A stretch of 64,000 bases of DNA, taken from an uncultured Flavobacteriaceae bacterium. Its GTDB lineage: Bacteria > Bacteroidota > Bacteroidia > Flavobacteriales > Flavobacteriaceae. Positions 26,736 through 63,533 of this stretch are shown one piece after another; within the stretch, counting starts at the first letter, position 1; the number at the start of each line of letters is the position of its first letter. The stretch is taken from the NCBI GenBank assembly GCA_947489085.1, contig CANLCJ010000002.1, positions 62,001-126,000 on the forward strand, read 5' to 3'. The position numbers and the translations under genes were made by a program. The notes beneath the pieces were generated by a model that did no database searches, was not told the origin of the DNA, and saw only the letters and a list, made by a program, of their open reading frames with translations.

Positions 26736-26744
26736 CTTTTTTTG

Positions 26745-43373: not shown

Positions 43374-44283
43374 AATCGTATTTATAGCAGTATTAGCTAT
43401 TGTTTTCATATTCCTGATTTCCTATTCCGTAATGGTAATGGGCGATGACGAAAGCGAGAATGACAATCTTGAACAAACCTTAATACCAGATTTGGAAGAA
43501 AATCAAAAAGAGTATGATTCTAAGTTAGATGCTCTTAATGATTTAAAAGAAGTGCGTGAAAACAATGCACCCAGCATCTATGATGAAAAATTAATTGATT
43601 CTTTAGGCTATTACGATCCAGATCTTCCAGAACGTGAAAGAAAACGTATTGTAGATAGTATTTATGATGCAGGTAAAATTCAATACTCAGATAAAAAATA
43701 TCAAAACTTCGGACAGAAGAAAGTCGAAAAGAAGCAACCTATAGAAATTGATTCTTCAGAAATACTTAGAGAACTTAAAATTCAAGCTAAAGAATTAGGC
43801 TTGGAACATCAACTGTTTTTTGCAGCTGCACCAAAACCCAATGAACTTTCTATTATTGGCAATACGGATGCTACCATTTACGTGGTTGTTGATGGCGACC
43901 AAATTGTAAAGGCAAACACCAGATTGAGAATGCGACTTACCAAAGCTGCAACAATCAACAGTAAACTAATGCCCAAGAACACACTTGTATTTGGTTTCAT
44001 CAGCTTTCAACCCAATCGTGCTTTAATTGAAATTGAGAATATCAATCATCATCCCACAAAACTCAAAGCTTTCGATTTACAAGATGGTAGTGAAGGTATT
44101 TATGTGGAAAATAACTTTAGAGCTGAAGCGACAGGTGAAGTTCTGGACGATGTTATTGGCGATATCAATATTCCAACTGTTCCGCAAGTAGGCGGCATCA
44201 CTAAAGTCCTTAGACGTAGTAATCGAAATGTGAAGGTTACTGTACTGAACAATTATAAACTTATTCTAAAACCAAAATTATGA
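43354..44283 (+). CDS. traM: Conjugative transposon protein TraM (VirB10-like)
   Basis: A 309-residue envelope-spanning protein: a short cytosolic start, one membrane helix (IVFIAVLAIVFIFLISYSVM), a long acidic linker (residues 32-150) and a C-terminal TraM/VirB10-like domain (LRMRLTKAATINSKLMPKNT, LVFGFISFQPNRALIEIENI). It would connect the inner and outer membrane parts of the channel. It starts inside traK and ends inside traN by 4 bases. Confidence 0.88.
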   Translation: MKVEKNKIVFIAVLAIVFIFLISYSVMVMGDDESENDNLEQTLIPDLEENQKEYDSKLDALNDLKEVRENNAPSIYDEKLIDSLGYYDPDLPERERKRIVDSIYDAGKIQYSDKKYQNFGQKKVEKKQPIEIDSSEILRELKIQAKELGLEHQLFFAAAPKPNELSIIGNTDATIYVVVDGDQIVKANTRLRMRLTKAATINSKLMPKNTLVFGFISFQPNRALIEIENINHHPTKLKAFDLQDGSEGIYVENNFRAEATGEVLDDVIGDINIPTVPQVGGITKVLRRSNRNVKVTVLNNYKLILKPKL

Positions 44284-45107
44284 GACCAATACTATTAATA
44301 TTAGCTATGATAATTTCAACTTTCGTGGAAGCACAAACAAGAATACTTGACACCATTTATGCTAATGACACAAAAAATGTGGCACTCTTTTTTCCTGAGC
44401 CTATACGTCAAGGTATAACTGGCTCAGAAAATTTTGTATTCACTTACAATCGTGAAAAAGAACAATATTTTGGTTTACTACAAGCTAAACAAGGAAAAGA
44501 AAGTAATCTACTGGTAATCAATAGAAATGGTTCGATTTTTTCGTATATTGTAAGGTATAAAGCGCAGCTTTCAAAGCTCAATTATTTCATCCCGATGACA
44601 AGTAGTATTGGGAATGAAAAACCAAAAGTCAAAGATTCAATTCAGACTGAAACTTTTGAAAAAAAGATTGATAACAGTACGTATTATTATCAAAAATTCT
44701 GCTCTTATCTTCTCGATAGAAGACAATATCTAGGAAGATATACAAGGCGAAATAGCGGTGTTATCATGAGGCTTGAAAATATTGTTTTTGATAAAGAAGA
44801 GCTCTACTTCGTTATTCAAATTAGGAATAATTCTACTTTGGATTATGATTTGAATTTCCTTAACCTTTCCGTTGAAACACGACAAAAAGGAAAAAAGAAA
44901 TCTTTACAACGTTTGTACATAGAGCCTATTTTTAAACATCATCTGCCTTCTAAAATTGTGGTAAATGAAACGGTAAGATTTATATATGTCATGCCTAAAT
45001 TTTCGTTATCTAATGACAGAAGAGTAGTTTTAGAATTAAATGAGAAAGATGGCGAACGAAATATTGAAATGAAAGTATCACATAAATATATCAATAACCC
45101 AAATTAA
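44280..45107 (+). CDS. traN: Conjugative transposon protein TraN (DUF4138, VirB9-like)
   Basis: A 275-residue exported protein: signal peptide ending at VEAQ, then the DUF4138 beta-rich domain (TIYANDTKNVALFFPEPIRQ, GITGSENFVFTYNREKE, GLLQAKQGKESNLLVINRNG) and a second domain with FDKEELYFVIQIRNNSTLDY. It is the VirB9-like outer-membrane partner of TraM, whose last bases it overlaps. Confidence 0.88.
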   Translation: MRPILLILAMIISTFVEAQTRILDTIYANDTKNVALFFPEPIRQGITGSENFVFTYNREKEQYFGLLQAKQGKESNLLVINRNGSIFSYIVRYKAQLSKLNYFIPMTSSIGNEKPKVKDSIQTETFEKKIDNSTYYYQKFCSYLLDRRQYLGRYTRRNSGVIMRLENIVFDKEELYFVIQIRNNSTLDYDLNFLNLSVETRQKGKKKSLQRLYIEPIFKHHLPSKIVVNETVRFIYVMPKFSLSNDRRVVLELNEKDGERNIEMKVSHKYINNPN

Positions 45108-49088: not shown

Positions 49089-50684
49089 TTAATTTTTGAA
49101 AATCGATCTAACTTCTTTATAAACTCTATCAAAATTAGCTTGTAAATCAGCATCAGAATAGTTCTGCTGCTTTGTTGGTAGTCGCTTTTCAATTTTAGGC
49201 AATTTAAATTGTACTTTTCTGTCCTTTCCATCTGCGAACGTAATAAATTCGCCTTCTTTCAGTCTGAAAAACACATCAGCTCTAATTTTTGCAACCTCAC
49301 GCTCTCCTGTTGTAATTCGTGTGTCAAAATTAAGATTATGACCTCTGTTTACGCTTGTGGTTTCTTTCTTTACAATTTCAAAAAAGCGTTCGTAATATTT
49401 AGCTGTGTCTGGATCGTTTACCTTTCCGAAGAATTGATATGATAAATTACTTAAAATTGCTTTACTCGCCTTATCTCCATACATCATATCATTCTGTATT
49501 TTGTCTTGCATTACATAAATCGTGGCAATATCATAACTACGCAATGTCGCTGGAATTCTGTGCATATTTAATAATCTGATTGTTGGTGCTTCTTCCATCA
49601 ACAAAAATGAAGCATTTGAATTTCGCACGCTCATTTGCTTTGTAATGGTGTGAATAATAGTCGCAATGATTGGCGAATAAGCTGTTTCGTATTTTGGATT
49701 ATTGACTACTGAAATCGCTAAAGGTTTGTCCTGGCTATTTATGTCGAGCGGAACATCATCTGCGGATAAAGCCATAAAAATACGTTGCGTACTTATTTTT
49801 TTGAGCGCATTGGCCAAAGTGCTTTTTACACCAGCCGTTTGTCTGTCTGAATCCTTACCACTAATAAAAGCGTCAGCCATCGCTCTCGATGTTGTATTCT
49901 TACTTAAAAATGCAATTAGACTTGAAGTGTTGAGATATTGGTAAACAGCTATTAAGTGAGGTAATGTACAATATTGTGGATGCGAGGTTCTTAACTTCCA
50001 AATCAATCCACTAATTAAGCCTTCAGCTGCATCATTAAAAAATTTTGTTGTTCCTATACTTCCGGATTCTCTTTGTTCTAATAGGTTTTCTATAAGCACT
50101 CTAGCGACCTCATTTACGCTTTCTTCATTGGTCATATATCTTGGTGCTATTGGATTCACTCGGTCATGAATGTTATCGAATGAAATTACTTTAAAATCAA
50201 TCTCATTTTTTTCAAATAAAGGAAATGCCATTTCTGTGATTTCAAAGTTTTTATAATCGTGAATTACACCAGAAAATTTATGTTTGCTGAAATGCTGAAG
50301 GAAATTAAAAACCACGCTTTCAGTTTTTCCACTTCCTGCAGAACCAATAATTGAAGCGCCTCGTTTGATGTTATTAATTTTGAAACTCCCTCGTTTTACT
50401 TTGAAATGAACTTGGTGCTTATCATTAGAATCCAAAATGTCATTCTCCTTGTGAAGAAACACATATAATACTGTATTGATAAGCAAAAGCGGACAACCGA
50501 TATAAAGAATCTGGATAACCCAATGCATTAAATACGGACTCAATTTAAAAAGCAACCCTAAACAAATAACAATCAAAATCAGGTTTACAAAAAAGGCGTA
50601 TCTCGTCATTTTGAAAAGACTTGAAAACACCAAGCTCATTCCAAACAGTAATGCAATAGTAAACGTGATTCCTTGTATTTCCAT
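49089..50684 (-). CDS. mobC: VirD4/TraG-type coupling protein (MobC)
   Basis: A 531-residue inner-membrane ATPase that brings the relaxase-DNA complex to the transfer channel. Membrane helices occupy residues 1-75. The Walker A is SIIGSAGSGKTESVVFNFL (about residue 112), and the Walker B region is SFLLMEEAPTIRLL, followed by RSYDIATIYVMQDKIQNDMM. It begins 1 base after the relaxase stop codon. Together with the two genes upstream it forms the mobABC set. Confidence 0.9.
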   Translation of the reverse strand: MEIQGITFTIALLFGMSLVFSSLFKMTRYAFFVNLILIVICLGLLFKLSPYLMHWVIQILYIGCPLLLINTVLYVFLHKENDILDSNDKHQVHFKVKRGSFKINNIKRGASIIGSAGSGKTESVVFNFLQHFSKHKFSGVIHDYKNFEITEMAFPLFEKNEIDFKVISFDNIHDRVNPIAPRYMTNEESVNEVARVLIENLLEQRESGSIGTTKFFNDAAEGLISGLIWKLRTSHPQYCTLPHLIAVYQYLNTSSLIAFLSKNTTSRAMADAFISGKDSDRQTAGVKSTLANALKKISTQRIFMALSADDVPLDINSQDKPLAISVVNNPKYETAYSPIIATIIHTITKQMSVRNSNASFLLMEEAPTIRLLNMHRIPATLRSYDIATIYVMQDKIQNDMMYGDKASKAILSNLSYQFFGKVNDPDTAKYYERFFEIVKKETTSVNRGHNLNFDTRITTGEREVAKIRADVFFRLKEGEFITFADGKDRKVQFKLPKIEKRLPTKQQNYSDADLQANFDRVYKEVRSIFKN

Positions 50685-50685
50685 A

Positions 50686-51714
50686 TTATATACCTATTGA
50701 ACCCGATTTAATTGCTATGTCCACACCACGTTTTAAATACTTTATGGTTTTAAGTGCTAACTGCACTTGATTGGTTGGAATACTCGCCATAGGGACTCCA
50801 GATTTTGCAAGCATTTTAAATGCTACTGCTTTCTCACTTGCTGGCAATCCTAATAATGTTGTGAAGTACAGTTTTGGATTTTTAATGAACTCTTTTTTCG
50901 ATTTATAGGATTCTGCATAGTTGCGTTTGTAACCAAAAGTTTTATCAAAAGTGCTTTCGGCTTTTGTGAAAAACGCATCTCTATCAAAACCACGTTTTAC
51001 AATTTTACCATGCATCTCAACTTCCGAACCTTTGTATTTAGATCCTGGTGATAGACTAACAGAATTTGAGGCATCTTTTCGACTCACGATAATATGAATA
51101 TGACTTTGATTACCTGCTTTTTTCATGCCTTGAACAATCCGTTTACCATTTTGTCGATGTGGTGCCTCGGCTTCGAGTTTGCTAATTTGGGATTTCATTT
51201 TCTTTATATTCCCATCTAATTGACCTTGTTCAATTTTCCGAATATCAGTTTTTAGCTGAAGTATTTTAGTGGCAAAAGGTTGGTTTTCTTTAACCTGTTT
51301 ATCTGTGCCTTTGAATGTTCTTTGATGCTCAATTTTTGCAAAATATTTTATGTCGTCAACAGTTATTGGTTTACCATTAATTTCTCGATTAAAGGACGTT
51401 GCATAATCGTTCATTATGACTCTAGTATATTTCTTTAAATCTTCAGAATTATTCTGTAATTTTCTTAATTCATATTTACTTGGACTAACTGTAATGGAAT
51501 AAAATTTTGGTTCTTTCTTTTTGAGTTTTGCAGCATTGCCATCAATTTCTTTTACCACATCTTTGGCTTCAATTTCATCGCCATATTGATTGAAAAAATG
51601 TTCCACATCTTCTTGCTCCAAACCTTGATTTTCTTTCTCCAGATACTCAGCAAAATCCGCAGAACTTTGTGAATAATCTCCTCCTAATTTTTGAGCTGTG
51701 ATTGTGATATACAT
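50686..51714 (-). CDS. mobB: Relaxase MobB (DUF5712-like)
   Basis: The start is set at ATG 51714 (MYITITAQKLGGDYSQSSAD), just past the stop of the upstream gene; the longer frame to 51741 would overlap it. The 342-residue protein has an N-terminal MYITITAQKLGG motif typical of Bacteroidota mobilisation relaxases, and NQSHIHIIVSRKDASNSVSL, where the histidine pair forms the metal-binding site (about residue 208). It nicks oriT, probably the region just upstream of mobA. Regions of charged coiled coil fill the middle. Confidence 0.82.
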   Translation of the reverse strand: MYITITAQKLGGDYSQSSADFAEYLEKENQGLEQEDVEHFFNQYGDEIEAKDVVKEIDGNAAKLKKKEPKFYSITVSPSKYELRKLQNNSEDLKKYTRVIMNDYATSFNREINGKPITVDDIKYFAKIEHQRTFKGTDKQVKENQPFATKILQLKTDIRKIEQGQLDGNIKKMKSQISKLEAEAPHRQNGKRIVQGMKKAGNQSHIHIIVSRKDASNSVSLSPGSKYKGSEVEMHGKIVKRGFDRDAFFTKAESTFDKTFGYKRNYAESYKSKKEFIKNPKLYFTTLLGLPASEKAVAFKMLAKSGVPMASIPTNQVQLALKTIKYLKRGVDIAIKSGSIGI

Positions 51715-51718
51715 AATA

Positions 51719-52111
51719 TTATAATTGATTACTTGAATCATTTTTTTCTACAATTAACACTTCCTTCTCTTTGACCTCTTTTTCTAAAATCAACTTTTCT
51801 TGCTTTGGTTCAAACTCCATAAATAAAGATCGCAACATTGCAGTTGTGGGTTTATCATGGTTCTTTTCTATGTCCTTTATAATGGCAATTACAGCATTGA
51901 TTCGCTTCTTAATTTTACTCTCCAATGTTTGCATATTTGGCCCTAAAGTTTCATTTGGTGAAATGCCATTGTCCTCAAAAAAGTCCAGCATCAGAAGCAA
52001 AGTCATCGATTGTGATTTAGATAATTTTTTACAAAACACTCGAAAACGCTCTGCTACTGAAGTTTTAATCCCGAGCTTCTCAAATCGCTCTTTTTCATAT
52101 CCTTTATCCAT
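51719..52111 (-). CDS. mobA: BfmA/BtgA-family mobilisation accessory protein
   Basis: A 130-residue protein (KLGIKTSVAERFRVFCKKLS, QSMTLLLMLDFFEDNGISP) resembling BtgA/BfmA accessory factors, which have a ribbon-helix-helix-like N-terminus and help the relaxase bind oriT. The C-terminus is a charged coil (EPKQEKLILEKEVKEKE). It lies directly downstream of the candidate oriT and its stop is 4 bases from the relaxase start. Confidence 0.82.
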   Translation of the reverse strand: MDKGYEKERFEKLGIKTSVAERFRVFCKKLSKSQSMTLLLMLDFFEDNGISPNETLGPNMQTLESKIKKRINAVIAIIKDIEKNHDKPTTAMLRSLFMEFEPKQEKLILEKEVKEKEVLIVEKNDSSNQL

Positions 52112-52707: not shown

Positions 52708-53157
52708 TTATAAAATTCCGTTATCTGAAAAACTATAATAATCTCCATCAGGTGCAAAAATCAAATGGTCGAGAAGCTTAATATCAAATAATTTTGCAGC
52801 ATTCTTAATCTTCTTCGTTAGGCTTTTATCAGCTTCACTAGGCATCAATTTTCCACTTGGATGATTGTGCGTTAAAATGATTGCTACCGATAGCGATTTT
52901 AAAATGACCGCAAATAAAATTCTTAAATCTACCAACGTTCCGACAATTCCACCTTGTGAAATTTGATATACGCCTTTTACCTTATTACTATTATTTAGAA
53001 GTACAATTTTAAATACTTCGTGTAGTGCAATAGTATCTTTATCCCAATCCTCAAACAACAATTCGGCTGCATCTTGAGAACTGTTTATTTTTTGCCACAT
53101 AGATGATTTTAAACCGCCTTTGTAGCTAATTTTTATTTCATTAACTTTGTTCTTCAT
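52708..53157 (-). CDS. radC: RadC/JAB-domain protein
   Basis: A 149-residue JAMM/MPN-fold protein: VFKIVLLNNSNKVKGVYQIS, GTLVDLRILFAVILKSLSV and the metal motif LTHNHPSGKLMPSEADKSLT (HxH...D), then FDIKLLDHLIFAPDGDYYSF. It is the short RadC form widespread on mobile elements, lacking the N-terminal helix-hairpin-helix. The role in DNA metabolism of the element is not established. It lies downstream of ssb. Confidence 0.88.
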   Translation of the reverse strand: MKNKVNEIKISYKGGLKSSMWQKINSSQDAAELLFEDWDKDTIALHEVFKIVLLNNSNKVKGVYQISQGGIVGTLVDLRILFAVILKSLSVAIILTHNHPSGKLMPSEADKSLTKKIKNAAKLFDIKLLDHLIFAPDGDYYSFSDNGIL

Positions 53158-53186
53158 TGTTTCTATTATTAGTTATAGTGAGAATG

Positions 53187-53225
53187 AAAAAGAGGGCGCA
53201 TCTTTCCACAGGAACGCCCTCTTTT
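53187..53225 (-). terminator. Terminator after ssb
   Basis: AAAAAGAGGGCG (53187-53198) and CGCCCTCTTTT (53215-53225) form a strong stem just beyond the ssb stop codon, between ssb and radC. Confidence 0.8.
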
Positions 53226-53233
53226 AATTTCAA

Positions 53234-53590
53234 TTATTCAGTAGCGTTATCCTCGCCTTTAATTCCCAAAAGCAGAATTTCATCAATTACCACTTCGGTA
53301 ACATATCTTTTTTCTCCCTCTTTGGTTTCATAAGAGCGTGAGGTCAATTTTCCCTCTAATGCTACTTCTTTTCCTTTGCCTACATATTTCTCAACGATTT
53401 CGGCAATCTTTCCCCATGCTACAATATTGTGCCATTGGGTGTTTGTCACTTTTTCTCCCTTAGAATCTTTATAAGATTCATTGGTTGCAATTGAAAATTT
53501 TGCAACTTTCTTTCCGCTTTCAAGATTTGTGATTTCTGGCTCGTTTCCTACGTTGCCAATTAACTGTACTTTGTTTCTTAGAGTACTCAT
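53234..53590 (-). CDS. ssb: Single-stranded DNA-binding protein
   Basis: A 118-residue OB-fold SSB: NKVQLIGNVGNEPEITNLES, KVAKFSIATNESYKDSKGEK, TQWHNIVAWGKIAEIVEKYV and KEVALEGKLTSRSYETKEGE. The C-terminal tail is short (GEDNATE) and lacks the usual acidic DDDIPF tip, so partner binding may differ from the chromosomal SSB. It would coat the transferred strand. It is preceded by a small lysine-rich frame. Confidence 0.92.
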   Translation of the reverse strand: MSTLRNKVQLIGNVGNEPEITNLESGKKVAKFSIATNESYKDSKGEKVTNTQWHNIVAWGKIAEIVEKYVGKGKEVALEGKLTSRSYETKEGEKRYVTEVVIDEILLLGIKGEDNATE

Positions 53591-53631
53591 AATAAAAAAT
53601 TTAAAGATTAATATTGACCTATCTAAACTAT

Positions 53632-53766
53632 TCAGAAAGGCTTTGTTATTGATTTACTTATTATATCCAGAGCGTTTTCCTTTTTTTGTTTTTTTAACTT
53701 TTGTTCTACTTCCTTTTTATTGATTTTGTAAGATTTCATAAGATTCATTTTAGATTTACTTCCCAT
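53632..53766 (-). CDS. Small lysine-rich protein upstream of ssb
   Basis: A 44-codon frame from ATG 53766 reads MGSKSKMNLMKSYKINKKEV and EQKLKKQKKENALDIISKSI, ending TKPF. It is colinear with ssb and ends 42 bases before the ssb start. The Lys-rich makeup and clean start and stop are suggestive, but there is no independent support. Confidence 0.4.
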   Translation of the reverse strand: MGSKSKMNLMKSYKINKKEVEQKLKKQKKENALDIISKSITKPF

Positions 53767-53812
53767 AGAGCCGACGCTGTTACCTTCTTTTTGTTGCTTA
53801 GTGCTGTCCAAT

Positions 53813-53882
53813 ATTCAGCTTTGTATAGACATATAAAAAGTGCGAGGTACGAGCCTGGTTATGCTGTCGTTCAAAGCTGAAT
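53813..53882. repeat. Long-loop inverted repeat with GCTGTC direct repeats
   Basis: ATTCAGCTTTG (53813-53823) and CAAAGCTGAAT (53872-53882) are perfect arms around a 48-base loop. GCTGTC recurs about 53803-53808, 53863-53868 and 53895-53900, with a related GCTGTT near 53776. No open frame covers it. It fits an origin-like or structured-RNA element in the 53767-54246 spacer. Confidence 0.45.
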
Positions 53883-54090
53883 GTTGTTATTTTGCTGTCA
53901 AAAAAAGGTATGACGGTGTTGGATTACGGAAGTGAACCTAAATTCTTTGTGAAATACAAAATCATAGGAATTGGAACAAAATGCAAATAATTTTTTCCTA
54001 TTTAGCGGACTTAATTCGCACTTTTTACTTGAAAATGAAGTGTGCCTTTCCAGAGCAACGGAAAGGGTTAACGGAATGAAAAGTCAAAAG

Positions 54091-54182
54091 TGTGGATTAT
54101 GTCCAAGACTTATTATAATGAAGCTCTTTTTCTGGAATGAAGTTTTTACGGAATGAAAGGAAATGTGCTGAATGACTTAGGT
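54091..54182 (+). repeat. ICE leader repeat B, copy 1
   Basis: Shares GTCCAAGAC, TGAAGCTCTTTT, TGGAATG, ACGGAATG and GGAAATGTGCTGAATG in order with 63443-63533. A looser match starts further left at an AGCGGAC element (about 54003; about 63343 in the other copy). It lies immediately before the Wadjet operon. I see no real gene in it. Confidence 0.65.
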
Positions 54183-54246
54183 AAATAAAATGTTGTCAAA
54201 TATTACTGTACTTTCTAGGTAAGAGTAATCTTTATTTTTAAATTAG

Positions 54247-55650
54247 GTGATTCACTTAAATTCAATTAAAATCGAGTCCGAAATATTAGACATAAATCAA
54301 TTGTATGACCATCTTGTTCTTACTAAAGAAGAAGGTATGGTAATCTATATCTTAGATTCAAGGATTAAAGCAGGTAAAGTTTCTAAATACTTTACTTATC
54401 GTGATATTGAGAAGTGCATTAATGAAAGTGCTAAAATAGAAGTTGGCTCTATACCACAAACAGAAAAAATTGTTAGAAACTTACTTCATTTTTATATTGA
54501 AAGACCACCAAATGAAGAGTTGAAATTTGCGCTTACCAACTATGCGAAAAAATTTATCGATTTAATCCATAAAAAACTTCATAGTCCACTTAAACATTTT
54601 CCACTTAAGAAAACGTTTCAGAAATATGCAGATTTTAAATCTTCGGAAATTGAAACTATAGCTGATTTTGAATTATGGTACGATTTACAATTTCACAATA
54701 ACAGTAAACAAACCATTATTGACCACCTTGAAGCTTTAAAGGATGTTGTCAATTCATCCATAAGCCGACTTAATGATTTATTGAAAAATGAATCAGAAGA
54801 CCTTTTGACCATTACAAAAGAATTTACATTAATCTTTGATGAAATTGGGCTAAAGTCCGAGGAAATAAAATATACTCTTCGTTTAGGAAACACTCTAAAT
54901 ATTGAAATTGAAAAAGTCGTTGATTTTTTCTATAAAGAAATAGATGAGTTTAAGCATCCTGAAAATAGTACTGAACGAGAAAAATTTGAAAAACTAAACG
55001 ATGACTACAAAAAGGCTTTGCATATAAAAACAGAAGTAACTGATTTTTTCTATGATGTAGATTATCGATTAAAGCAATTGATGGATAAGTCATTATATGC
55101 TAATAACCAATTAACAAATCTTCAAAATAGCTTTAGAAACCAATCAAGGATAAGAATAAATTTAAAGAAATTATTGAAATTCACATTAGAGCAAGCTTCG
55201 TATTCCAATAAACACATTATCACTTTACCTAAATCCTTTCCAATAAAATCAATACCTATTGAGAGATTTAAATTTATAGAAGTACCTTATTACCACACAT
55301 ATGGAATTCAGAGAAACGAAATACTACCAGCTCATTACGACAATGAATATGCAAGGTCTGAAAGAGAAAAGGTAGAAAAAGACCTTTTTAGGCAAGAGAG
55401 TGCTGCAAAATTACTTAGAGAGTATAAAAGTATTCTCGAAGAGAAAAAAGAACTGAATTTCACAGAGCATTTCTATAAAATTCTAGAACGTGAAAATGAT
55501 AGTGAAATAGCTTTAAGCGTTGGTTTTGACCTTTTCCAATTTGCAAACAGCAATCCCAGATATCAAATAGAAATTACAAAGGATTTGCCAGAGGCATATT
55601 CCGAACAAAAAATATTAGTATGGAACATGAAAATAAACCAAATTCTTTAG
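54247..55650 (+). CDS. jetA: Wadjet JetA-like (kleisin-type subunit)
   Basis: A 467-residue mostly helical protein, first gene of a four-gene SMC operon and read from a GTG start. Residues 1-100 look like a winged-helix bundle (HLVLTKEEGMVIYILDSRIK, IPQTEKIVRNLLHFYIERPP); the rest is coiled (ESEDLLTITKEFTLIFDEIG). The plan matches the MukF/MksF-like kleisins of Wadjet systems. It overlaps jetB by 31 bases, indicating translational coupling. Assignment rests mainly on gene order and the clear JetC and JetD. Confidence 0.78.
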   Translation: MIHLNSIKIESEILDINQLYDHLVLTKEEGMVIYILDSRIKAGKVSKYFTYRDIEKCINESAKIEVGSIPQTEKIVRNLLHFYIERPPNEELKFALTNYAKKFIDLIHKKLHSPLKHFPLKKTFQKYADFKSSEIETIADFELWYDLQFHNNSKQTIIDHLEALKDVVNSSISRLNDLLKNESEDLLTITKEFTLIFDEIGLKSEEIKYTLRLGNTLNIEIEKVVDFFYKEIDEFKHPENSTEREKFEKLNDDYKKALHIKTEVTDFFYDVDYRLKQLMDKSLYANNQLTNLQNSFRNQSRIRINLKKLLKFTLEQASYSNKHIITLPKSFPIKSIPIERFKFIEVPYYHTYGIQRNEILPAHYDNEYARSEREKVEKDLFRQESAAKLLREYKSILEEKKELNFTEHFYKILERENDSEIALSVGFDLFQFANSNPRYQIEITKDLPEAYSEQKILVWNMKINQIL

Positions 55651-56309
55651 AACATCCTTTTAAGTTTTTAGAAAATAATGATGTTAAAGAAAAATTTGCA
55701 AACCTTAACATAGAACTTTTAAGTGGCAGACACATTCAAAAGGACTCAAATTATTACCTCTACCAGTTACTAAAAAAATATTTTGAAGAACTAAAGTTCT
55801 ACTATGCCAACTTCTATGGTTTAGAGTTAGAAAGAGACTATAAAGATGACATCACATTTTATTTTCTTGATTTTACAGAAGATTCAAAGGGTGCTTTAAG
55901 CTCAACGAGAAGACATAAAGAATTATCCAGCTTACAGACCGTAATGGGCATAATGCTATTAAATATGTATTATGACAGGTACTTTGAAAATATTAAGGAA
56001 ATAACATTTCCAGATATTAAAAAGGAAATTTTATCTGGTGAAAACAGTAAGCATTTCAAAAAATTATGGTTTAAAGAAATAAGAGATGAATATTCGCCCA
56101 ACGAATGGAAGCGTGTGATTACCAATATTAAAAATACTATACGAGATTTTGAAAAATTAGGATGGGTAGAATCTATGGCTAAAGACGAGGGTGAAGACAT
56201 CCACTTTAAGCTAAAAGAACCTATTTATCGTTTTCAAAAATTATATGAAAAAGAAATAACCCACATTGATGAATTTATAGAGAACTACTTATTACAGACA
56301 AATGATTAA
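55620..56309 (+). CDS. jetB: Wadjet JetB-like (DUF4194, KITE-type subunit)
   Basis: A 229-residue acidic protein with tandem winged-helix character (SNYYLYQLLKKYFEELKFYY, LSSLQTVMGIMLLNMYYDRY, IRDFEKLGWVESMAKDEGED, IHFKLKEPIYRFQKLY). This is the DUF4194/MksE-like pattern of JetB, which bridges kleisin and SMC heads. The start lies inside jetA and its end overlaps jetC by 8 bases. Confidence 0.82.
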   Translation: MEHENKPNSLEHPFKFLENNDVKEKFANLNIELLSGRHIQKDSNYYLYQLLKKYFEELKFYYANFYGLELERDYKDDITFYFLDFTEDSKGALSSTRRHKELSSLQTVMGIMLLNMYYDRYFENIKEITFPDIKKEILSGENSKHFKKLWFKEIRDEYSPNEWKRVITNIKNTIRDFEKLGWVESMAKDEGEDIHFKLKEPIYRFQKLYEKEITHIDEFIENYLLQTND

Positions 56310-59300
56310 ATACCCACGAATATATTCTTTTTCTACAGTTGGAATCATAATGCATTTTAACCAAGATTATTTATTACACCCTATTAGGACAGATTTCACA
56401 GGAAAGAACGGAATAGGGAAATCACTTATTGCCGACCTTTTTCAAATTCTTTTTATCTCAGATAAGCAAAAAATAGCGTTTGGTACTGAAAGCTTCAAGA
56501 ACAATACGCGATTACTTCACACACTTCCTTATAAAACTTCAGACGCTTATATTTTTATTAATATTGAAGTAGAAAAAGATAGCTTTATCACTTTAGGCGT
56601 TAACATACCCAATAAAAAAAGCAGACCACTCAAATCATTTTGGATTCTTAATAAAGCTCATGGTATAAATGATAATAATGAATTAAGTGATTTAAGCATT
56701 GCTAAAAACAACATACCATTTTTTAAGGATTTTATTCATGATAATAGTATCCCACCAATAGAGAAACTTGCCATTAAACTAAGGGATGAAAAACAAATAT
56801 ATCTTAGAAGCTTTTCAGATAAGAATCAAAAAAATGAACTTTACACTTTCCTATTTGAAAATAGAGTATTACCAATCGACCTTTCTATAGAATCTAATCT
56901 TGACGCTTTTGCGAAAGTCATACAGTCGTTCTCAAAAGCAAAAACGTTAGACACAGATAGTGACGATAGCTTAAAGAGCTTTCTTTTTGAAGATAAAACA
57001 GACAACCTTAAATCTGAATATGAAAAACATAAAGCAGACTTAGAAAAACTCATTAATGATTACAAAGACCTTGAAGAATTAATTGCAGATATAGAAAATA
57101 AACAAGAACGTCTTACCAATTTAAGTTCTTTAAACAGCCTCTACCTCAATTCATTTAAGGAACACCTTTTAGTAGAATTCACGCATACTGAAAATGAAAT
57201 TTTAAAAAAGAATCAATCATTAAAAGATATAAACACACAACTATTAGAAGAAAATAAACTAATTAAATCATTACAAACTGATAACCCAAAAGTTAAAAAA
57301 GCAGCTCTAAAAGCTAAAAAAGAACATGATAATCTTGATAAAACCATAAAGCACTTAAAAGAATACAGCGACATTTTCGCTAAAATAGAAGCATTAGAAT
57401 CTAAGGTGAATGAATTAGAATGTATTAAGTTACCTGCAATTGAAAATGAAGCAAAAATCTCTATTAAGAATATCGAAACTTTTGAAATTTCGGAAATAAA
57501 ACGTAGAATATCTCATTTTACAACTGTTTTTGAAGATTATGGTTCTCTTGAAAGCATCGAGCAAACCATTGAATCCCAAAAAGAGACACTTGATAATCGA
57601 AAGAGTTCACTCAAATCAAATAAAGCGGACATTCGCGAATTACTTAACCTTCTCTCTAAAAATAAGAAAAACTCTCTGTTTGCTCAACTTTTATCGCAAC
57701 AGAAAACATTAACTAAAAGTCAAGAAGCAATTCTATTTGCAATCTTAAAAGGTGTTCATTGGAAGAAACCAAATGAAATAATCGCTGGCATTAGGTATGT
57801 TGAAAGTTTAGCATTTATGGATGAAAAATTTATTGAAAATGATTCTGAAAATGATGGTTATTGGTTTAGTATGGGTGGCATAAAAGAGTTTATATCTTCA
57901 ACAAAAGATAAACAATTATTCAAAGATAAAGACAAACTTGGGAAAGCACTTTCTAATCAAACAACAAAACTGAACAACCAAATTAGTCTAATCGATAAAG
58001 AACTTTCACACATTGAATCCTTTTTTAGAGGTGAAAAATTTGAACAAAAATCAATACATATTGACCAAAAGTTAGACCAAAGAATTAATGACTTTTCTAA
58101 ACTAAAAGATTTAAAACTTTCTTTAGGTTTAATTCAAAATCTTGAAGTTAAAAAACAGAGCTTAAATACTCAAATTTTTAATGAGAACAAGCTATTAAAA
58201 AAAGTAGAGCTAAAAATCAATATTCCCATTGAAAAAAAGAACCTTGCTAATCAGCTAGAAAAACTTAAAGAAGAGTTAGAATCTATCGACATAAAAGAGC
58301 GAAACCTATCTTCTCAATATAGTTCTGATAAAAGTAAATTGGAAGAAAAACTACGATTTTTACCATCACTCAAAAACCAACCTTTGGATTTGGGAAAATC
58401 GCTTACAGATTTAGAAAATCAACGTAAAAAAATTGAAACAGATTTTTACAAATATTTCCCAGATTTAGACATCAAGAATATAGATAAATCGAGGTACACA
58501 GGTATTGAAAGAAATCCTTTATATACTGAGTTTCAATCCAACAAAACTAATTATATAGGTGATTATAAAGGAATTATAAGCTCATTTGAACAAATTAAAA
58601 ACGACCCAGAAATTAACGAACAAATTACACAAGTAACATATAACTTTGAAATACTTGAGCGTGTCCTTTTAGGTCCAAAAATAAAACACTCAGCTAATAT
58701 TTCAGAAGAGCTTAAACAACTTAACAGTAGTAGATATAGAATGTTTGGTGCTATCCATGAAACGATGTTAAATATTTTTAAGCAAACCAAAGGAAAGTTT
58801 GATGAATATCATGAAACTATAAAAGCGTTAAATAAATTTTTTAAAGGAAAGAAAATTAGTGGTAAATATTATTTTCAATTGGAATTTAACAAACCGTCAG
58901 ACTTTGATATTAACTGGATTAATGATTTACAGGCCACATCCCAACAGGTGCATAGTGCAGGTGAACTTCCCTTAGGTGAATCTGTCGAGAGTTTTGTAGA
59001 GAATTTTTTCATGAAAACCACCAGTTTTAATCAAAAAATAAAATTTTCTAATTTGCTTGACCCGAAGACGTATTTTGAGTTAAGGACAAAATTTACTGAT
59101 GAGTTTGATAATGAAAAATCTGGTGGTAGTACTGGCGAAAGTTATGCAGCGATTGTACTGCTAGGTATAGGTAGATTGTCCGTAGTTTTAAATGCTGATT
59201 TACCAGGACTTCGATTCCTTATTTTAGAAGAGGTTTCAAATTTAGATAATTTGAATTTTAGCACTTTCCCAAATATTGCTGAAGAATTCGGTTATCAGAT

Positions 59301-59475
59301 TCTTACAATGACACCACGACCATTTGGCTCAGATACCGAACAAGGTTGGTATTTGCATCATTTAATAGAAGGTGCTGGCGATAAAAATATTAACTATCCT
59401 ATTCCTAATAGTTATTTTAAAACCAATGAAGGCAGGGAAGATTTAGAAACGTATCTAAAAGCACAATCAAATTAA
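56302..59475 (+). CDS. jetC: Wadjet JetC-like SMC ATPase
   Basis: A 1057-residue SMC-family motor. The N-terminal half-ATPase has Walker A FTGKNGIGKSLIADLFQILF (residues 32-51). Residues ~230-430 and 630-720 are long coiled-coil arms separated by a hinge-like region. The C-terminal half-ATPase has the ABC signature SGGSTGESYAAIVLLGIGRL (about residue 945) and Walker B LRFLILEEVSNLDN (about residue 973), the EE pair being catalytic. JetC extrudes DNA loops with JetAB. Gene order and motifs identify it well. Confidence 0.88.
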   Translation: MIKYPRIYSFSTVGIIMHFNQDYLLHPIRTDFTGKNGIGKSLIADLFQILFISDKQKIAFGTESFKNNTRLLHTLPYKTSDAYIFINIEVEKDSFITLGVNIPNKKSRPLKSFWILNKAHGINDNNELSDLSIAKNNIPFFKDFIHDNSIPPIEKLAIKLRDEKQIYLRSFSDKNQKNELYTFLFENRVLPIDLSIESNLDAFAKVIQSFSKAKTLDTDSDDSLKSFLFEDKTDNLKSEYEKHKADLEKLINDYKDLEELIADIENKQERLTNLSSLNSLYLNSFKEHLLVEFTHTENEILKKNQSLKDINTQLLEENKLIKSLQTDNPKVKKAALKAKKEHDNLDKTIKHLKEYSDIFAKIEALESKVNELECIKLPAIENEAKISIKNIETFEISEIKRRISHFTTVFEDYGSLESIEQTIESQKETLDNRKSSLKSNKADIRELLNLLSKNKKNSLFAQLLSQQKTLTKSQEAILFAILKGVHWKKPNEIIAGIRYVESLAFMDEKFIENDSENDGYWFSMGGIKEFISSTKDKQLFKDKDKLGKALSNQTTKLNNQISLIDKELSHIESFFRGEKFEQKSIHIDQKLDQRINDFSKLKDLKLSLGLIQNLEVKKQSLNTQIFNENKLLKKVELKINIPIEKKNLANQLEKLKEELESIDIKERNLSSQYSSDKSKLEEKLRFLPSLKNQPLDLGKSLTDLENQRKKIETDFYKYFPDLDIKNIDKSRYTGIERNPLYTEFQSNKTNYIGDYKGIISSFEQIKNDPEINEQITQVTYNFEILERVLLGPKIKHSANISEELKQLNSSRYRMFGAIHETMLNIFKQTKGKFDEYHETIKALNKFFKGKKISGKYYFQLEFNKPSDFDINWINDLQATSQQVHSAGELPLGESVESFVENFFMKTTSFNQKIKFSNLLDPKTYFELRTKFTDEFDNEKSGGSTGESYAAIVLLGIGRLSVVLNADLPGLRFLILEEVSNLDNLNFSTFPNIAEEFGYQILTMTPRPFGSDTEQGWYLHHLIEGAGDKNINYPIPNSYFKTNEGREDLETYLKAQSN

Positions 59476-59477
59476 GA

Positions 59478-60398
59478 ATGAATTGGACTGTATTAAAATC
59501 TCTACATCAGCTTTTTTTAGACCGAAAAACTAAAGTTAAGCATTCTCTAAAAGAAGATTCATCCTTTCAACTATTGGTATCTAATAAAGAAATTATAGAA
59601 GTAGGTAAAAACTATTTGCCTGGGCTTCTTTTTGATTCGTATTATAAAAAACATCATTTAAACCAGTTTCCTATTTATTTTGATTTTTTAGAAACCCATA
59701 ATCTTTTAAAGAAACGATTTGAAGAAGAGGATATAAAGACTCTAATTGAATTACAATCAAAGAAGCAAAGTGGTAATCTAATACCTAGTAGAGAACAATT
59801 AATTGAAGCACAAGAAACCGTTAGAGGGTTCTCAACAATGTTTTTTAAAAATGACAAGTACTTAGATAAAAAAGACTCATTAATAAAAGCCATTAATCAA
59901 ATACTTGATATTACACTTGTAGAGAACAAAGACCAACAGTATCTATACATACTTCAATGTGAAAAACCAGAATTAATTGTTCTTTGCGAAAATTTAGACT
60001 TTTTAAGAAAAGACAAAATGCCTCGTGAGAATAATTATGAACTTTGGTACGCAGGTGGAAAAAATGTTCCCAAATTAAAATACGCAGATACGAGAGGACT
60101 TCCCATTTTTTATTCAGCGGATTGGGATGCAGATGGTTTAGAAATTTATGAGTTAGCCAAAGAAAAAATTCCGGAACTTCAACTTTTATTCCCAACGGCC
60201 ATATCAAAAAGTATTGTTGATACTGAACATAGTAGTCATTGGAAAAATCAAGATAAACCAGAAGCACTTTCAAATTTAAGTTCTCATTTGTATTCAGAGA
60301 AGTACAAAGCAAAGATTAAAAAACTTATAGAGACGAATCATTGGATTATTGAGGAATCTAACGACTTAAAAAAAATGATTCAAAACAGTTTCTCTTGA
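59478..60398 (+). CDS. jetD: Wadjet JetD-like TOPRIM nuclease
   Basis: A 306-residue protein, 2 bases after jetC. The C-terminal TOPRIM-like domain shows the conserved glutamate in LIVLCENLDFLRKDK (about residue 175) and the metal motif LPIFYSADWDADGLEIYELA (DWD at about residue 215). The N-terminal part (residues 1-110) is helical. JetD cuts DNA trapped by the JetABC motor. At 306 residues it is shorter than typical JetD proteins with a separate N-terminal DUF3322 domain, so this is a divergent or minimal version. Confidence 0.8.
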   Translation: MNWTVLKSLHQLFLDRKTKVKHSLKEDSSFQLLVSNKEIIEVGKNYLPGLLFDSYYKKHHLNQFPIYFDFLETHNLLKKRFEEEDIKTLIELQSKKQSGNLIPSREQLIEAQETVRGFSTMFFKNDKYLDKKDSLIKAINQILDITLVENKDQQYLYILQCEKPELIVLCENLDFLRKDKMPRENNYELWYAGGKNVPKLKYADTRGLPIFYSADWDADGLEIYELAKEKIPELQLLFPTAISKSIVDTEHSSHWKNQDKPEALSNLSSHLYSEKYKAKIKKLIETNHWIIEESNDLKKMIQNSFS

Positions 60399-60925
60399 AT
60401 ATCTAAAATACCATCGTCTTTTGACACTTTATTCTTTTTCAAAATTCCCTTAAGCGCTTTTCTTCGCTTATCATAAATCCATAATCTCAGATTTTTTAAG
60501 AGTCCTTTTTCATAATCCGACAGTTCTTTTGGTGCTATTTCAATCATAGCTTCTAATTGGTCTTTACTTTTGGTCTGTATTGCATATTGAAGTCCTAGCC
60601 ATGTATAAATATTTACCCATTCTGTTTGCATGGGTGCTTCAAAAGTTCTTGGCATCATGTAGGCTAAAGTCTCTGTAAGCGATGCCATTTTATCTCCTGT
60701 CATTGAGCACATTATTCTTGATAATTTTATTTTACCTAGAATGTCTTTTGGTATGGTGTCTTGCCATGCGCATTTAAAAACTATTATTGGACTCGCAAGG
60801 CAATCCATAAAATCGAAAACGAAATCGCTCTTTTCCTTTTTAGTTGGTTTTACTACCTTTTCCTTTATTATAATCGGCTTACATTCAAAACCGAAATCGA
60901 ACTGAACTACTTTTAAATTTTCCAT
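60380..60925 (-). CDS. Hypothetical ICE backbone protein
   Basis: A 181-residue protein when started at ATG 60925 (MENLKVVQFDFGFECKPIII); a longer start at 60949 would overlap the next gene's stop. It has a lysine-rich N-terminal part (KEKVVKPTKKEKSDFVFDFM) and a helical rest (MASLTETLAYMMPRTFEAPM). I do not recognise a domain; homologues appear near parB in Bacteroidota elements as far as I recall. It converges with jetD and overlaps its end by 19 bases, marking the edge of the Wadjet cargo. Confidence 0.6.
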   Translation of the reverse strand: MENLKVVQFDFGFECKPIIIKEKVVKPTKKEKSDFVFDFMDCLASPIIVFKCAWQDTIPKDILGKIKLSRIMCSMTGDKMASLTETLAYMMPRTFEAPMQTEWVNIYTWLGLQYAIQTKSKDQLEAMIEIAPKELSDYEKGLLKNLRLWIYDKRRKALKGILKKNKVSKDDGILDIQEKLF

Positions 60926-60941
60926 GATGTGAGACTTTAAA

Positions 60942-61103
60942 TTAAACACTATCTAATAATACTTGATAATTCACAGGATGCTTATCTCTGTAGTAAGCTA
61001 AATGACTTTCTCCACTATCGACATCGTAATTTTCACTACTTAATCGGTAATGTTCTTCTACTTCTTGTAATGACATGTTGAATTTTTCAGTTACTTGTTT
61101 CAT
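60942..61103 (-). CDS. Small acidic ICE protein (53 residues)
   Basis: A clean frame from ATG 61103 to TAA reads MKQVTEKFNMSLQEVEEHYR, then LSSENYDVDSGESHLAYYRD and KHPVNYQVLLDSV. It is colinear with the 181-residue protein downstream and is preceded by leader repeat A, as is the parB-like gene. Good codon character and the shared leader support it as a real gene; the function is unknown. Confidence 0.6.
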   Translation of the reverse strand: MKQVTEKFNMSLQEVEEHYRLSSENYDVDSGESHLAYYRDKHPVNYQVLLDSV

Positions 61104-61120
61104 GATTCTAGGTTTTTTTG

Positions 61121-61285
61121 ATTAAACAATATTTGAGCAGTCCCTAAACGGAAGTTAAAATCACAGCTCAAAAGGAAACGGAATAAATAAGCGTTGGACG
61201 ATGCGTAGGCTTTATGCCGTAGTCTTTTGATGGATGTATTTTACGAGTTTACCTTTGCGCTGATATTGATTGAATAGGTTCTACT
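61121..61285 (-). repeat. ICE leader repeat A, copy 1
   Basis: About 165 bases that closely match 63173-63340: ATTAAACAATATTT, ACGGAAGT-AAAAT, GCTCAAAAGGAAACGGAATA, GGCTTTATGCCGTAGTCTTT and ATTTTACGAGTTTA in the same order. It starts 18 bases before the small 53-residue protein's ATG. Confidence 0.85.
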
Positions 61286-61299
61286 TACCTTTTTTTAAA

Positions 61300-61338
61300 G
61301 GACTATATAAAAAAATAAGAGCCAGCACGAATGCTGAC
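61300..61338 (-). terminator. Terminator of the parB-like gene
   Basis: On the minus strand GTCAGCA-TTCG-TGCTGGC, a UUCG-tetraloop hairpin with one G-U pair, is followed by TCTTATTTTTTTATA. It starts 22 bases beyond the stop codon. Confidence 0.8.
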
Positions 61339-61359
61339 CCTTACTTCCAACAACAAAAG

Positions 61360-63156
61360 CTAATCGTTTAATTCCTGAATTTTCTTTTCAAGATTTCCTA
61401 TCCGCTCTTTCAAACGTGTTTCACGCTTATTTCTCTCTTCAGCATATTCCTTTTCAATATTGGCAATTTTGGTTTTATAATACCCTTGCATCGCATTGTA
61501 GAATGAAATGTTTGTCAAGTTATTAACGTGATTGCTTTCGCCAAAATGTACTTGCTTGGTAAGGATGTACCGAATCAACTTATAAAAGGTTTCTTTTTTG
61601 AAATTCTTTTTGAAGTTCTCGACAGTTTCAACATCAGTCTTCTTGGATGTGTTACCCAATAATTTTGAAAAGTGTTTTTGTCGACCTACATAGTCCACAT
61701 TGTTTTCAAATAAAGTTAATGAAAAAGCCACCATTTCATCTACCGAAAGTGATTTCTTCTTTTCAATATAATCGGTTCCACGAATCATCTGAACAATGTC
61801 CTCAAATTCCTTATTGTACTCGATATGTCGCTTTCTGATTTCCCTTTCATTGATTTTAACGATTTGCTCTTCAGGCGAACACTCTGCCATTTTTCTATTT
61901 GCTAACGGTTCAGAGTATATAGAATTTACAGTTTTTGAATCTTCTATTACCTTCACAAAGATTGCTTTGTGAACATACGTTTTTGGATGAAACATAATAC
62001 CTTTTACGAATCCATTTTCTTTTGCGGAATTATACACTTCCAATTCTTCCTTGTAATTATCAACCGCTTCTTCAAGTTCATCTTTCAGCTCATCTTCAGA
62101 ATAGTCGTAATGTTGGTATTCTGTCTTAATTGCTTCCATTGTAGGTTCAATAGGTTCCTCGATTATTTCAACATCATCCAGAAGATAGACTTTCAATCCA
62201 TTTTTTTCCAATTGCGATATAATGAGCTGGTTATTCTCGTCATCTGCCCAGTATTTGCGAATTTCAGGAATCAACAACACATTCTCTCTCTTCGATTTCT
62301 CAATTAAATTCAAGAATGACTTGCTTTTCTTCGTTTCATAACAAGCTGATTTTGTACACACCATTTTACCATCGCCAAACAAATTGCCTTGATTTGCTGC
62401 GTTGAACGGACATGTTGTACAGGCACCAGCTTTTGTTATTAATTTTTCATCGACCACATCGAAAGGTGCATTCTCCAAATCATAAGTCTGGTTTTTAATC
62501 ATCTGATTAATTTGATGTGCATTAAATTCTTCGCCCATGGTTTCCAATATCATTTGCTGTTCCTCTGGCTCGAAAAGTGCAACACCTACGCCTAATGAAA
62601 TGGTCATTTCGCCATTACGAACAAACACTTTAAAACCTTCAATTAGACCTGCTAATTTTAAACGTTGTCTTACAAAGTTTTCTGTTCTACCCAAGCGTTT
62701 TGAAATCTCCGTTGGCGCATATTTTTCGCTTAGGAACGCAACCGCCTCAGCTTCTTCGGTAGGTTCAACATCCTGTCTTTGCAGGTTTTCGATAATTTGA
62801 ATTTCCAGAACATCATTATTATCATATTCTCTTACGATACTCGGAATTGTCTTCTTTTTAGCCAATTTACTTGCACGATACCTACGCTCTCCCATTACAA
62901 TGACGTAATCTCTTCCAGATTTTCGGACTGTGATAGGTTGTAGAACACCATGTTCTTCGATGCTTTCAGACAGCTGCTTAAGAGCTTCCTCGTTAAAGGT
63001 TTTTCTTGGTTGCATCGGGTCTGGGATAATCCTTCCGATAGGTAGTTCTTGAACTTGAAGTCCAATGACGCTTTGAGTCAATTTTTTCTTGACCTCATTT
63101 TTAACGGTAGCTGATGCCTTTCCGTTTTTACTTTCAGTACTCGCTTTTGTTGTCAT
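61360..63156 (-). CDS. parB: ParB/RepB/Spo0J-family partition protein
   Basis: A 598-residue ParB-type protein. The N-terminal ParB domain shows IGRIIPDPMQPRKTFNEEAL, SIEEHGVLQPITVRKSGRDY and the CTP-binding GERRYRASKLAKKKTIPSIV. An HTH follows (EISKRLGRTENFVRQRLKLA). About residue 240 is a cysteine-rich motif (ACTTCPFNAANQGN ... VCTKSACYETKK) that could bind zinc. The long C-terminus is helical with a coiled-coil end. It is much longer than chromosomal ParB, as is usual for ICE-borne copies. No parA is in the window. Confidence 0.88.
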   Translation of the reverse strand: MTTKASTESKNGKASATVKNEVKKKLTQSVIGLQVQELPIGRIIPDPMQPRKTFNEEALKQLSESIEEHGVLQPITVRKSGRDYVIVMGERRYRASKLAKKKTIPSIVREYDNNDVLEIQIIENLQRQDVEPTEEAEAVAFLSEKYAPTEISKRLGRTENFVRQRLKLAGLIEGFKVFVRNGEMTISLGVGVALFEPEEQQMILETMGEEFNAHQINQMIKNQTYDLENAPFDVVDEKLITKAGACTTCPFNAANQGNLFGDGKMVCTKSACYETKKSKSFLNLIEKSKRENVLLIPEIRKYWADDENNQLIISQLEKNGLKVYLLDDVEIIEEPIEPTMEAIKTEYQHYDYSEDELKDELEEAVDNYKEELEVYNSAKENGFVKGIMFHPKTYVHKAIFVKVIEDSKTVNSIYSEPLANRKMAECSPEEQIVKINEREIRKRHIEYNKEFEDIVQMIRGTDYIEKKKSLSVDEMVAFSLTLFENNVDYVGRQKHFSKLLGNTSKKTDVETVENFKKNFKKETFYKLIRYILTKQVHFGESNHVNNLTNISFYNAMQGYYKTKIANIEKEYAEERNKRETRLKERIGNLEKKIQELND

Positions 63157-63172
63157 AATACTTAAATTTTAG

Positions 63173-63340
63173 ATTAAACAATATTTTTGCAGAACCCAAA
63201 CGGAAGTCAAAATTTCTGCTCAAAAGGAAACGGAATAAATGAGTTGTGGGCGAAGCGTTGGCTTTATGCCGTAGTCTTTTGATGATAATATTTTACGAGT
63301 TTATCTTTGTACCAATATTGATATAGATATCTCTCCCTTT
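63173..63340 (-). repeat. ICE leader repeat A, copy 2
   Basis: The second copy of the repeat at 61121-61285, here starting 17 bases before the parB-like ATG. With repeat B directly to its right it fills the 63157-63544 gap, which has no gene. Confidence 0.85.
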
Positions 63341-63442
63341 TTTTAAGCGGACGTTATTTCAAAGTTTTATATTAGAAATGTAGTTTTACTGCTCCCGAAG
63401 TTTCGAGATTAGGCAGGATGAAGCGAAGTGGAAATCTAAAAT

Positions 63443-63533
63443 TTTGGAATTGTGTCCAAGACCTGCTTTAAGTGAAGCTCTTTTCTTGGAATGTAGAGTA
63501 ACGGAATGTAGGGAAATGTGCTGAATGGCTTGT
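63443..63533 (+). repeat. ICE leader repeat B, copy 2
   Basis: Matches 54091-54182 in the same orientation. It sits between leader repeat A and the end of the gene at the right edge of the window. Confidence 0.65.

Follow-up and report, generated by a model that had tools for sequence, protein, structure and literature searches.

We analysed a window of 64,000 nucleotides (positions 62001–126000 of contig CANLCJ010000002.1) from the 3.65 Mb genome of an uncultured Flavobacteriaceae bacterium (G000) and found on its plus strand, at 54247–60398, a four-gene operon of the Wadjet (JetABCD) kind. With a probability of about 0.75, we consider it a complete and probably functional, divergent Wadjet-group operon that forms an exchangeable cargo module of a Flavobacteriaceae integrative and conjugative element (ICE) of about 64 kb. 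This reading draws on gene content, the integrity of domains and motifs, selection, the spread of the element and the insertion of the module.

The listing of open reading frames (ORFs) confirmed four complete plus-strand genes. They encode a JetA/MksF-like kleisin (54247–55650, 467 amino acids, GTG start), assigned from its predicted fold and conservation among relatives; a JetB/MksE-like KITE subunit (55620–56309, 229 amino acids), assigned from the Pfam family MksE (PF21980); a JetC/MksB-like SMC ATPase (56302–59475, 1057 amino acids), assigned from invariant ATPase residues and a MukB profile match; and a predicted JetD/MksG-like TOPRIM nuclease (59478–60398, 306 amino acids), assigned from its AlphaFold2 (AF2) fold and invariant E/DxD residues. 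Genes 1 and 2 overlap by 31 bp and genes 2 and 3 by 8 bp, while a gap of 2 bp separates genes 3 and 4; the description of four overlapping genes in an earlier note on this DNA thus holds for two of the three junctions. The 3′ end of jetD overlaps by 19 bp the 3′ end of an antisense gene (60380–60949), termed g60 below. Co-directional kleisin, KITE and SMC genes with a flanking nuclease gene form the layout of the Wadjet group, and the lengths of MksF (467), MksE (229) and MksB (1057 amino acids) fall within the size criteria set out in a passage of PMC7617805.

Gene 2 matched Pfam MksE (E = 7.4e-26, 91.9 bits, cut-off 27) and, more weakly, MukE (7.8e-6), and is a KITE subunit of the MksE type. 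In gene 3, residues G34, G37, G39, K40 and S41, which we read as Walker A, and G942, S943 and E977, read as the signature and Walker B region, were invariant in nine sequences. The JetC profile retrieved MukB from the PDB (3euj, 3.1e-4 for the whole chain; best single stretch 0.028), and weak PADLOC matches to JetC1 (2.5e-4) and LmuB (0.0078) were obtained; a single-sequence PDB search with JetC gave nothing up to E = 1. The gene product is a MukB-like SMC ATPase whose Walker motifs, so read, are intact. Gene 1 had no match in Pfam, PADLOC or NCBIfam, and its profile found no kleisin in the PDB, returning designed helical bundles along with viral and other unrelated-looking proteins instead. 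The top eight PDB matches of its AF2 model (predicted local distance difference test, pLDDT, 70) were MukBEF/MukEF chains (best 9gm7_C, 6.7e-7), two of them from an entry named MukF (1t98) and the others taken for MukF by their length; the ninth was chain 8q72_E of E. coli JetABCD (3.3e-3), read as JetA. By predicted fold only, gene 1 is read as a MukF/JetA-like kleisin. The AF2 model of gene 4 (pLDDT 84) matched MksG of C. glutamicum (8b7f, 3.6e-6) and JetD of P. aeruginosa (7til, 8e-4), as well as topoisomerase VI (9o8p, 2zbk), and marginal PADLOC matches pointed to JetD1 (0.0018) and JetD3 (0.0022). Residues E171 and D215/D217 were invariant in nine sequences with identity down to 31%; a pattern scan missed the TOPRIM glutamate in most JetD rows, and the alignment shows Glu in nine. 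We read gene 4 as a TOPRIM protein of the JetD/MksG type that keeps E...DxD. Together, the MksE match, the SMC residues and the MukF-like and MksG/JetD-like predicted folds lead us to read the operon as JetA-JetB-JetC-JetD, equivalent to MksF-E-B-G, and these lines agree with the earlier proposal of a complete kleisin/KITE/SMC/TOPRIM operon.

JetC relatives were found in 9 of 149 near genomes, the window's own included, and the order of genes 2-3-4 was identical in all nine. BLAST recognised gene 1 in eight of them, weakly in G093 (4.6e-4); in the ninth, G040, a 446-amino-acid ORF without a BLAST match occupies the gene 1 position, and this gene, known by place and size, was included in the JetA alignment. 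No JetA match was obtained by BLAST in G040, G624, G602, G632 or G582, and the replacement ORF was aligned in G040 only. JetB of locus L014 is split over two frames in that metagenome-assembled genome and was used unmended, and the G087 row of alignment A4 is incomplete at its end, at the locus border. Between ICE copies, the ratio of nonsynonymous to synonymous change (dN/dS) in the operon genes was 0.045–0.13 where changes suffice; a value of 0.24 (JetA, G000 versus G083) comes from hardly any changes, with none at all in JetB for that pair. With a range of 0.045–0.13, the operon is more than a chance assembly and is maintained by purifying selection. At the DNA level, the window and G083 were ~100% identical at 53.9–56.9 kb, mostly 79–90% at 56.9–59.9 kb, and 100% up to 60.8 kb. 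Within this mosaic segment (56900–59900), about 10–21% divergent from the G083 copy between near-identical flanks, recombination has exchanged the bulk of JetC beyond its N-terminal part, along with the N-terminal part of JetD.

Few genomes carry the operon. JetD matches occurred in 19 of 397 family genomes, 17 of them full-length (those in G615 and G692 are partial and were not counted as such), and in 4 of 395 phylum genomes, three full-length (G486 partial). MksE homologues were present in 24 of 249 family genomes at 25 loci, 16 with a JetD of the window's family, eight with a different fourth gene and one orphan; among the eight other fourth genes, a TOPRIM-like E...DxD was read by eye in four, and the remaining four are merely similar ORFs. 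One orphan apart, no nuclease-free MksBEF operon was found among the 25 loci. As a control, the MksE family also matches C. glutamicum. The earlier note had named a housekeeping MksBEF family without a nuclease as an outcome that would speak against it; what we observed instead is a JetD-type predicted fold with E...DxD kept.

The operon occupies a defined insertion site. Genomes G047 and G602 align to window positions 53131–54189 and 60379–61399 with just 26 bp in between, so that the operon appears as a clean 6.2-kb insert between ssb and g60; in these empty-site alignments the cargo module (54190–60378) corresponds exactly to the operon. Its left edge is formed by the ICE gene for the single-stranded DNA-binding protein SSB (53234–53590, minus strand; Pfam SSB, 9.3e-35) and its right edge by g60, a minus-strand backbone gene of 189 amino acids. 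The empty site of G602 lies in a full ICE. In 120 kb around G047, neither TraG nor a relaxase or integrase was detected, and this locus may therefore be an ICE remnant. Among 20 near-full-length g60 loci (23 found, three partial ones dropped; L128 and L137, both kept, have a stop within the g60 frame), three have jetD adjoining, 11 have ssb within 1.5 kb with no operon between, and six have neither. Four of the 11 empty loci (G602, G060, G632 and G047) were examined for other ICE genes. In five of the six loci with neither (G671, G253, G658, G739 and G561), ssb lies further away with other ORFs between, and no ssb was found at the sixth (G041). The ssb–g60 site of G671 holds a DEAD-box helicase, and that of G253 the same, judged by length and start, which suggests that the site accepts different modules. 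An 839-amino-acid DEAD-box/ResIII helicase was observed in this site at L141:12307–14826 and L142:12116–14635 (L141 was scanned).

Uptake of such operons by ICEs also extends beyond this site. Divergent operons, with JetD 31–33% identical to that of the window, lie upstream of TraG in the related ICEs of G558, G561, G645, G632 and G582 (the contig of G645 is short and includes TraG only in part). In the JetD tree, ICE-borne copies form three separate groups; the G602 copy, found on a contig without ICE genes in view, belongs to one of them as well. In 8 of 20 genomes, TraG and the operon were no more than 40 kb apart, versus 0.42 expected; keeping one of the four copies of the window's ICE, the count was 5 of 17 versus 0.32 expected, a level reached in 2 of 200,000 simulations. 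These simulations used uniform positions and genome sizes that had been rounded, and the five cases left are perhaps not entirely independent of one another. In G062 (L038:7217–12774), G087 and G729, the operon relatives lie next to a series of small proteins, of which seven were scanned and two matched phage endolysin families; large genes shared with the window's ICE, presumably for metal efflux, are close by, and these operons perhaps ride another kind of mobile element.

Several results weigh against reading the operon as a functional, ICE-borne Wadjet system. The profile searches suggested in the earlier note failed to recognise the genes, with no DUF3375 match anywhere in the host genome, 20.9 bits against DUF4194 for gene 2 (cut-off 32.7) and 16 bits against JetD_C for gene 4 (0.0079; cut-off 22); type I was rejected as an assignment on these grounds. 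The PADLOC models of types I–III gave no JetA or JetB match and only marginal JetC and JetD matches, plus LmuB for the SMC protein. Lacking PADLOC JetA and JetB as well as DUF3375 matches, the operon has no type I–III assignment; it belongs to the Wadjet group but, by these profile models, to none of the three types. A search of PDB sequences with the JetD profile retrieved no solved structure up to E = 1, the TM-scores of the structural matches cited above are low (TMq 0.15–0.36), and the JetA model has intermediate quality. JetD relatives were absent from the plasmid and phage collections searched. Finally, in 12 of the 20 genomes, G645 among them, no PF19044 TraG lies at a distance of 40 kb or less from the operon; ICE carriage is thus common in the clade, not a rule.

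The carrier itself has the components of a Bacteroidota-type ICE: an integrase, a relaxase, a coupling protein, TraG, TraM and TraN, and attachment (att) sites in tRNA genes. It is an apparently active element of about 64 kb in a tRNA-Leu gene, with an approximate attL at 26735–26800, a partial tRNA-Leu copy, and an intact tRNA-Leu at the other end (contig 152810–152892, or ~90810 in window coordinates, beyond the window). The left end carries a tyrosine integrase (27003–28217, plus strand; Phage_integrase 2.7e-13, with arm and SAM-like domains), followed on the plus strand by the conjugation ATPase TraG (38905–41307; Bac_Flav_CT_G 312.9 bits, cut-off 261.55) and by TraM (43354–44283) and TraN (44280–45107) of the Bacteroidota conjugative transposon type. 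TraM passed the cut-off of Pfam Transposon_TraM (1.4e-38) and fell under that of NCBIfam Bac_Flav_CT_M; TraN passed that of Pfam DUF4138 (3.1e-25) and fell under that of NCBIfam Bac_Flav_CT_N (8.8e-29). On the minus strand lie a MobC-like type IV coupling protein (49089–50684; Pfam T4SS-DNA_transf 1.8e-17, over cut-off; NCBIfam Bacteroid_MobC 1.6e-46, under cut-off), a MobB relaxase (50686–51741; NCBIfam MobB_relaxase 413 bits, cut-off 200; Pfam DUF5712), a BfmA/BtgA mobilization accessory protein (51719–52111; NCBIfam mob_BfmA_Nterm 5.1e-33), a RadC-like backbone protein (52708–53157; Pfam RadC 6.2e-35) and, beyond the operon, a PRTRC-like ParB-family protein (61360–63156; Pfam ParB_N 1.7e-31; NCBIfam PRTRC_parB 2.5e-37, under cut-off). 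The operon is therefore plus-strand cargo among minus-strand mob, radC, ssb and parB genes, as had been described, and the empty sites of G047 and G602 together with the surrounding ICE genes bear out that it is a module inserted into a conjugative element.

Related copies of this ICE occur in four genera, with most long blocks at 87–99.6% DNA identity. G002, from the same genus, matches the window over 36.6 kb at 99.6% and in other blocks at 84–96%; G083 and G028 match it in blocks of more than 2 kb at 94–97% (one at 84%) and 87.5–93%, respectively. Over 14.9 kb, reaching the window end, a Psychroserpens contig is 98.6% identical to the window, and its JetB, JetC and JetD are 100% identical in protein sequence to those of the window. 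In G083 and G028 the ICE sits at tRNA-Met, with a different integrase (40–41% identical) and att repeats of 46–47 bp. Across G000, G002, G083 and G028, similar ICE bodies thus occur with two integrases and in tRNA genes of two kinds (Leu and Met), an indication that the integration module has been exchanged. The close copies in four genera and the two tRNA sites are indirect indications of excision and transfer.

Two further features of the ICE were observed. The variable region upstream of TraG contains a DUF2326 ATPase gene (34329–36056) and a SMEK-domain gene (36292–37218), presumably an ABC-3C-like pair that may provide this ICE with a second module for defence. Repeats of ~95 and ~185 bp, 80–82% alike, are located at 54004–54174, 61115–61298, 63167–63346 and 63438–63531; they lie near the starts of the minus-strand ssb, g60 and parB genes, and several copies occur in related loci too. 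They are possibly shared control sequences of early-entry genes. Tried as hairpin promoters active in single-stranded DNA, they gave weak folding signals: one of six folds had a z of −2.2 and the others −1.7 or weaker.

By analogy with described systems, the operon would act through loop extrusion, circle-specific cleavage and plasmid exclusion. Passages of PMC10586767 describe JetABC as reeling DNA and JetD as cutting once the whole circle has been taken up, with circles above ~50–100 kb and linear DNA escaping; the portion of PMC12287153 consulted gives the same 50–100 kb range, along with an apparent 40 kb limit inferred from co-occurrence in Bacillota genomes. In the operon studied here, the MukF-like kleisin and MksE-type KITE would join SMC dimers into an ATP-driven double DNA-reeling motor. 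On a small circle, the motors would reel in the entire molecule and then stall, whereupon the TOPRIM nuclease JetD would cut the circle, while the chromosome and the integrated ICE would be too long for full reeling. The likely benefit would be that competing small circular elements are kept out of the host.

Movement of an ICE requires a circular stage, and it is fair to infer that in this form the element must avoid cleaving itself. The six measured carriers are 63.8 (G000), 61.8 (G002), 61.1 (G083), 66.3 (G028), 53.3 (G558) and 70.7 kb (G632) long, and the operon-free related ICE of G602 is 61.2 kb, so that the carriers do not appear oversized in comparison with this one control. For G000, G002 and G558 the length was taken between 25-bp repeats located slightly inward of the tRNA-side ends, and the repeats used for G602 and G632 measure 21 and 23 bp; no usable repeat pair was found in the ICEs of G561, G582, G047 and G060. 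All six carriers (53–71 kb) fall within the published 50–100 kb cut-off zone and above the apparent 40 kb limit. By analogy, the excised ICE would be a borderline target, and a limit of 40 kb would let all six carriers escape, favouring size exemption. The excised circle may be spared because its size just suffices, because expression is delayed after entry or through some form of protection. Strand orientation was rejected as a timing device: the operon runs against mob and ssb in the window and in G632 and along with them in G558, G561 and G582. A more pointed proposal, that one ICE family has repeatedly taken up a Wadjet clade outside types I–III as an inter-element weapon and that the carrier is spared by delayed expression or by shielding through SSB, ParB, RadC or g60, not by size, strikes us as doubtful.

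The same architecture could also respond to a different trigger and defend against phages or conjugating DNA generally, not against small plasmids. The presumed ABC-3C-like pair on the same ICE, a possible anti-phage module, would fit such a role. So would the position of the clade outside types I–III in PADLOC, together with the suggestion in a part of the review PMC10586767 that types II and III may have other substrates; the four subunits, however, keep the Wadjet layout, whose activity as described in passages of PMC10586767 and PMC10123090 is plasmid restriction by cleavage, and we consider this alternative unlikely. Less probable again is a tool for ICE maintenance or exclusion, which would destroy excised copies or incoming sister circles and lock the resident in the chromosome. 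Such a tool would agree with carrier sizes inside the cut-off zone (sections of PMC12287153 and PMC10586767), but closely related operon-bearing ICEs in four genera indicate that transfer has happened with the operon aboard, and the operon is missing from the same place in 17 of 20 g60 loci. It is improbable that the operon is a housekeeping MksBEF/MukBEF condensin, serving to organise the chromosome or to segregate the ICE, with an incidental fourth gene. The KITE and kleisin do look MksE/MukF-like, and the absence of an SMC protein over the curated cut-off in the host and the lack of a ScpB match in the host and 20 relatives (21/21) could leave a condensin role vacant, but ScpB was also unmatched in 3 of 14 control genomes and is maybe too diverged to detect. 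Against this reading, the TOPRIM gene is under purifying selection with its acidic residues invariant in nine sequences, full-length JetD in just 17 of 397 family genomes is not core, the operon lies on a mobile element and its insertion site also occurs empty, and none of the 25 MksE loci lacks a fourth gene, one orphan apart. A nuclease-free MksBEF was rejected on the same grounds, namely a JetD that is present and under selection, few carriers and mobile DNA. The host may, as a separate observation, lack the canonical Smc-ScpAB condensin.

As a divergent Wadjet-group operon, the system shares the kleisin-KITE-SMC-TOPRIM order with type I JetABCD of E. coli GF4-3 and P. aeruginosa PA14 and with MksBEFG of C. 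glutamicum, and the predicted fold of its JetD matches C. glutamicum MksG (8b7f) and JetD (7til). It differs from type I in lacking a DUF3375 kleisin and in DUF4194 and JetD_C scores under cut-off, its JetD is shorter (306 amino acids) than the MksG/JetD chains (365–374 amino acids), and, unlike these JetABCD and MksBEFG comparators, it is carried on an ICE. It resembles MukBEF in its kleisin model, nearest to MukBEF/MukEF chains, and its SMC protein, nearest to MukB in the PDB, and MukBEF and MksBEF in a KITE subunit of the MksE/MukE type. In contrast to MukBEF, which has no nuclease according to a passage of PMC7617805, and to MksBEF of P. aeruginosa, from which the nuclease was likely lost according to one of PMC10586767, it keeps JetD/MksG.

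Wadjet on mobile DNA is already known: sections of PMC10586767 describe it in plasmids and sections of PMC12629846 in Pseudomonas PAPI-2 islands, both cases of an anti-plasmid system on a mobile or formerly mobile element, and the title of PDB entry 8q72 reads 'plasmid-borne JetABCD'. Unlike those carriers, the present one is an ICE that sits in a tRNA gene and is apparently active, and both an empty site and several places of insertion are seen. Among the papers listed in the literature searches, judged by titles, abstract openings and passages (with subscription papers and preprints outside), none described a Wadjet operon on a flavobacterial ICE; the operon adds a divergent member to a known kind of system. 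A Campylobacter ICE reportedly carries a CRISPR-Cas9 system that targets plasmids. Both would be ICE-borne weapons against competing plasmids, the Campylobacter one being RNA-guided whereas Wadjet senses DNA shape.

The distinction that Wadjet makes between self and non-self is believed to rest on the size and shape of DNA, yet in this case the system rides an element that must circularise, and the related ICEs with and without the operon offer a natural system for the question of self-avoidance. The operon also widens the sequence range of JetD-bearing complexes to one with a MukF-like kleisin and an MksE-like KITE, which bears on the proposal, in a passage of PMC10586767, that MukBEF and MksBEF derive from Wadjet by nuclease loss.

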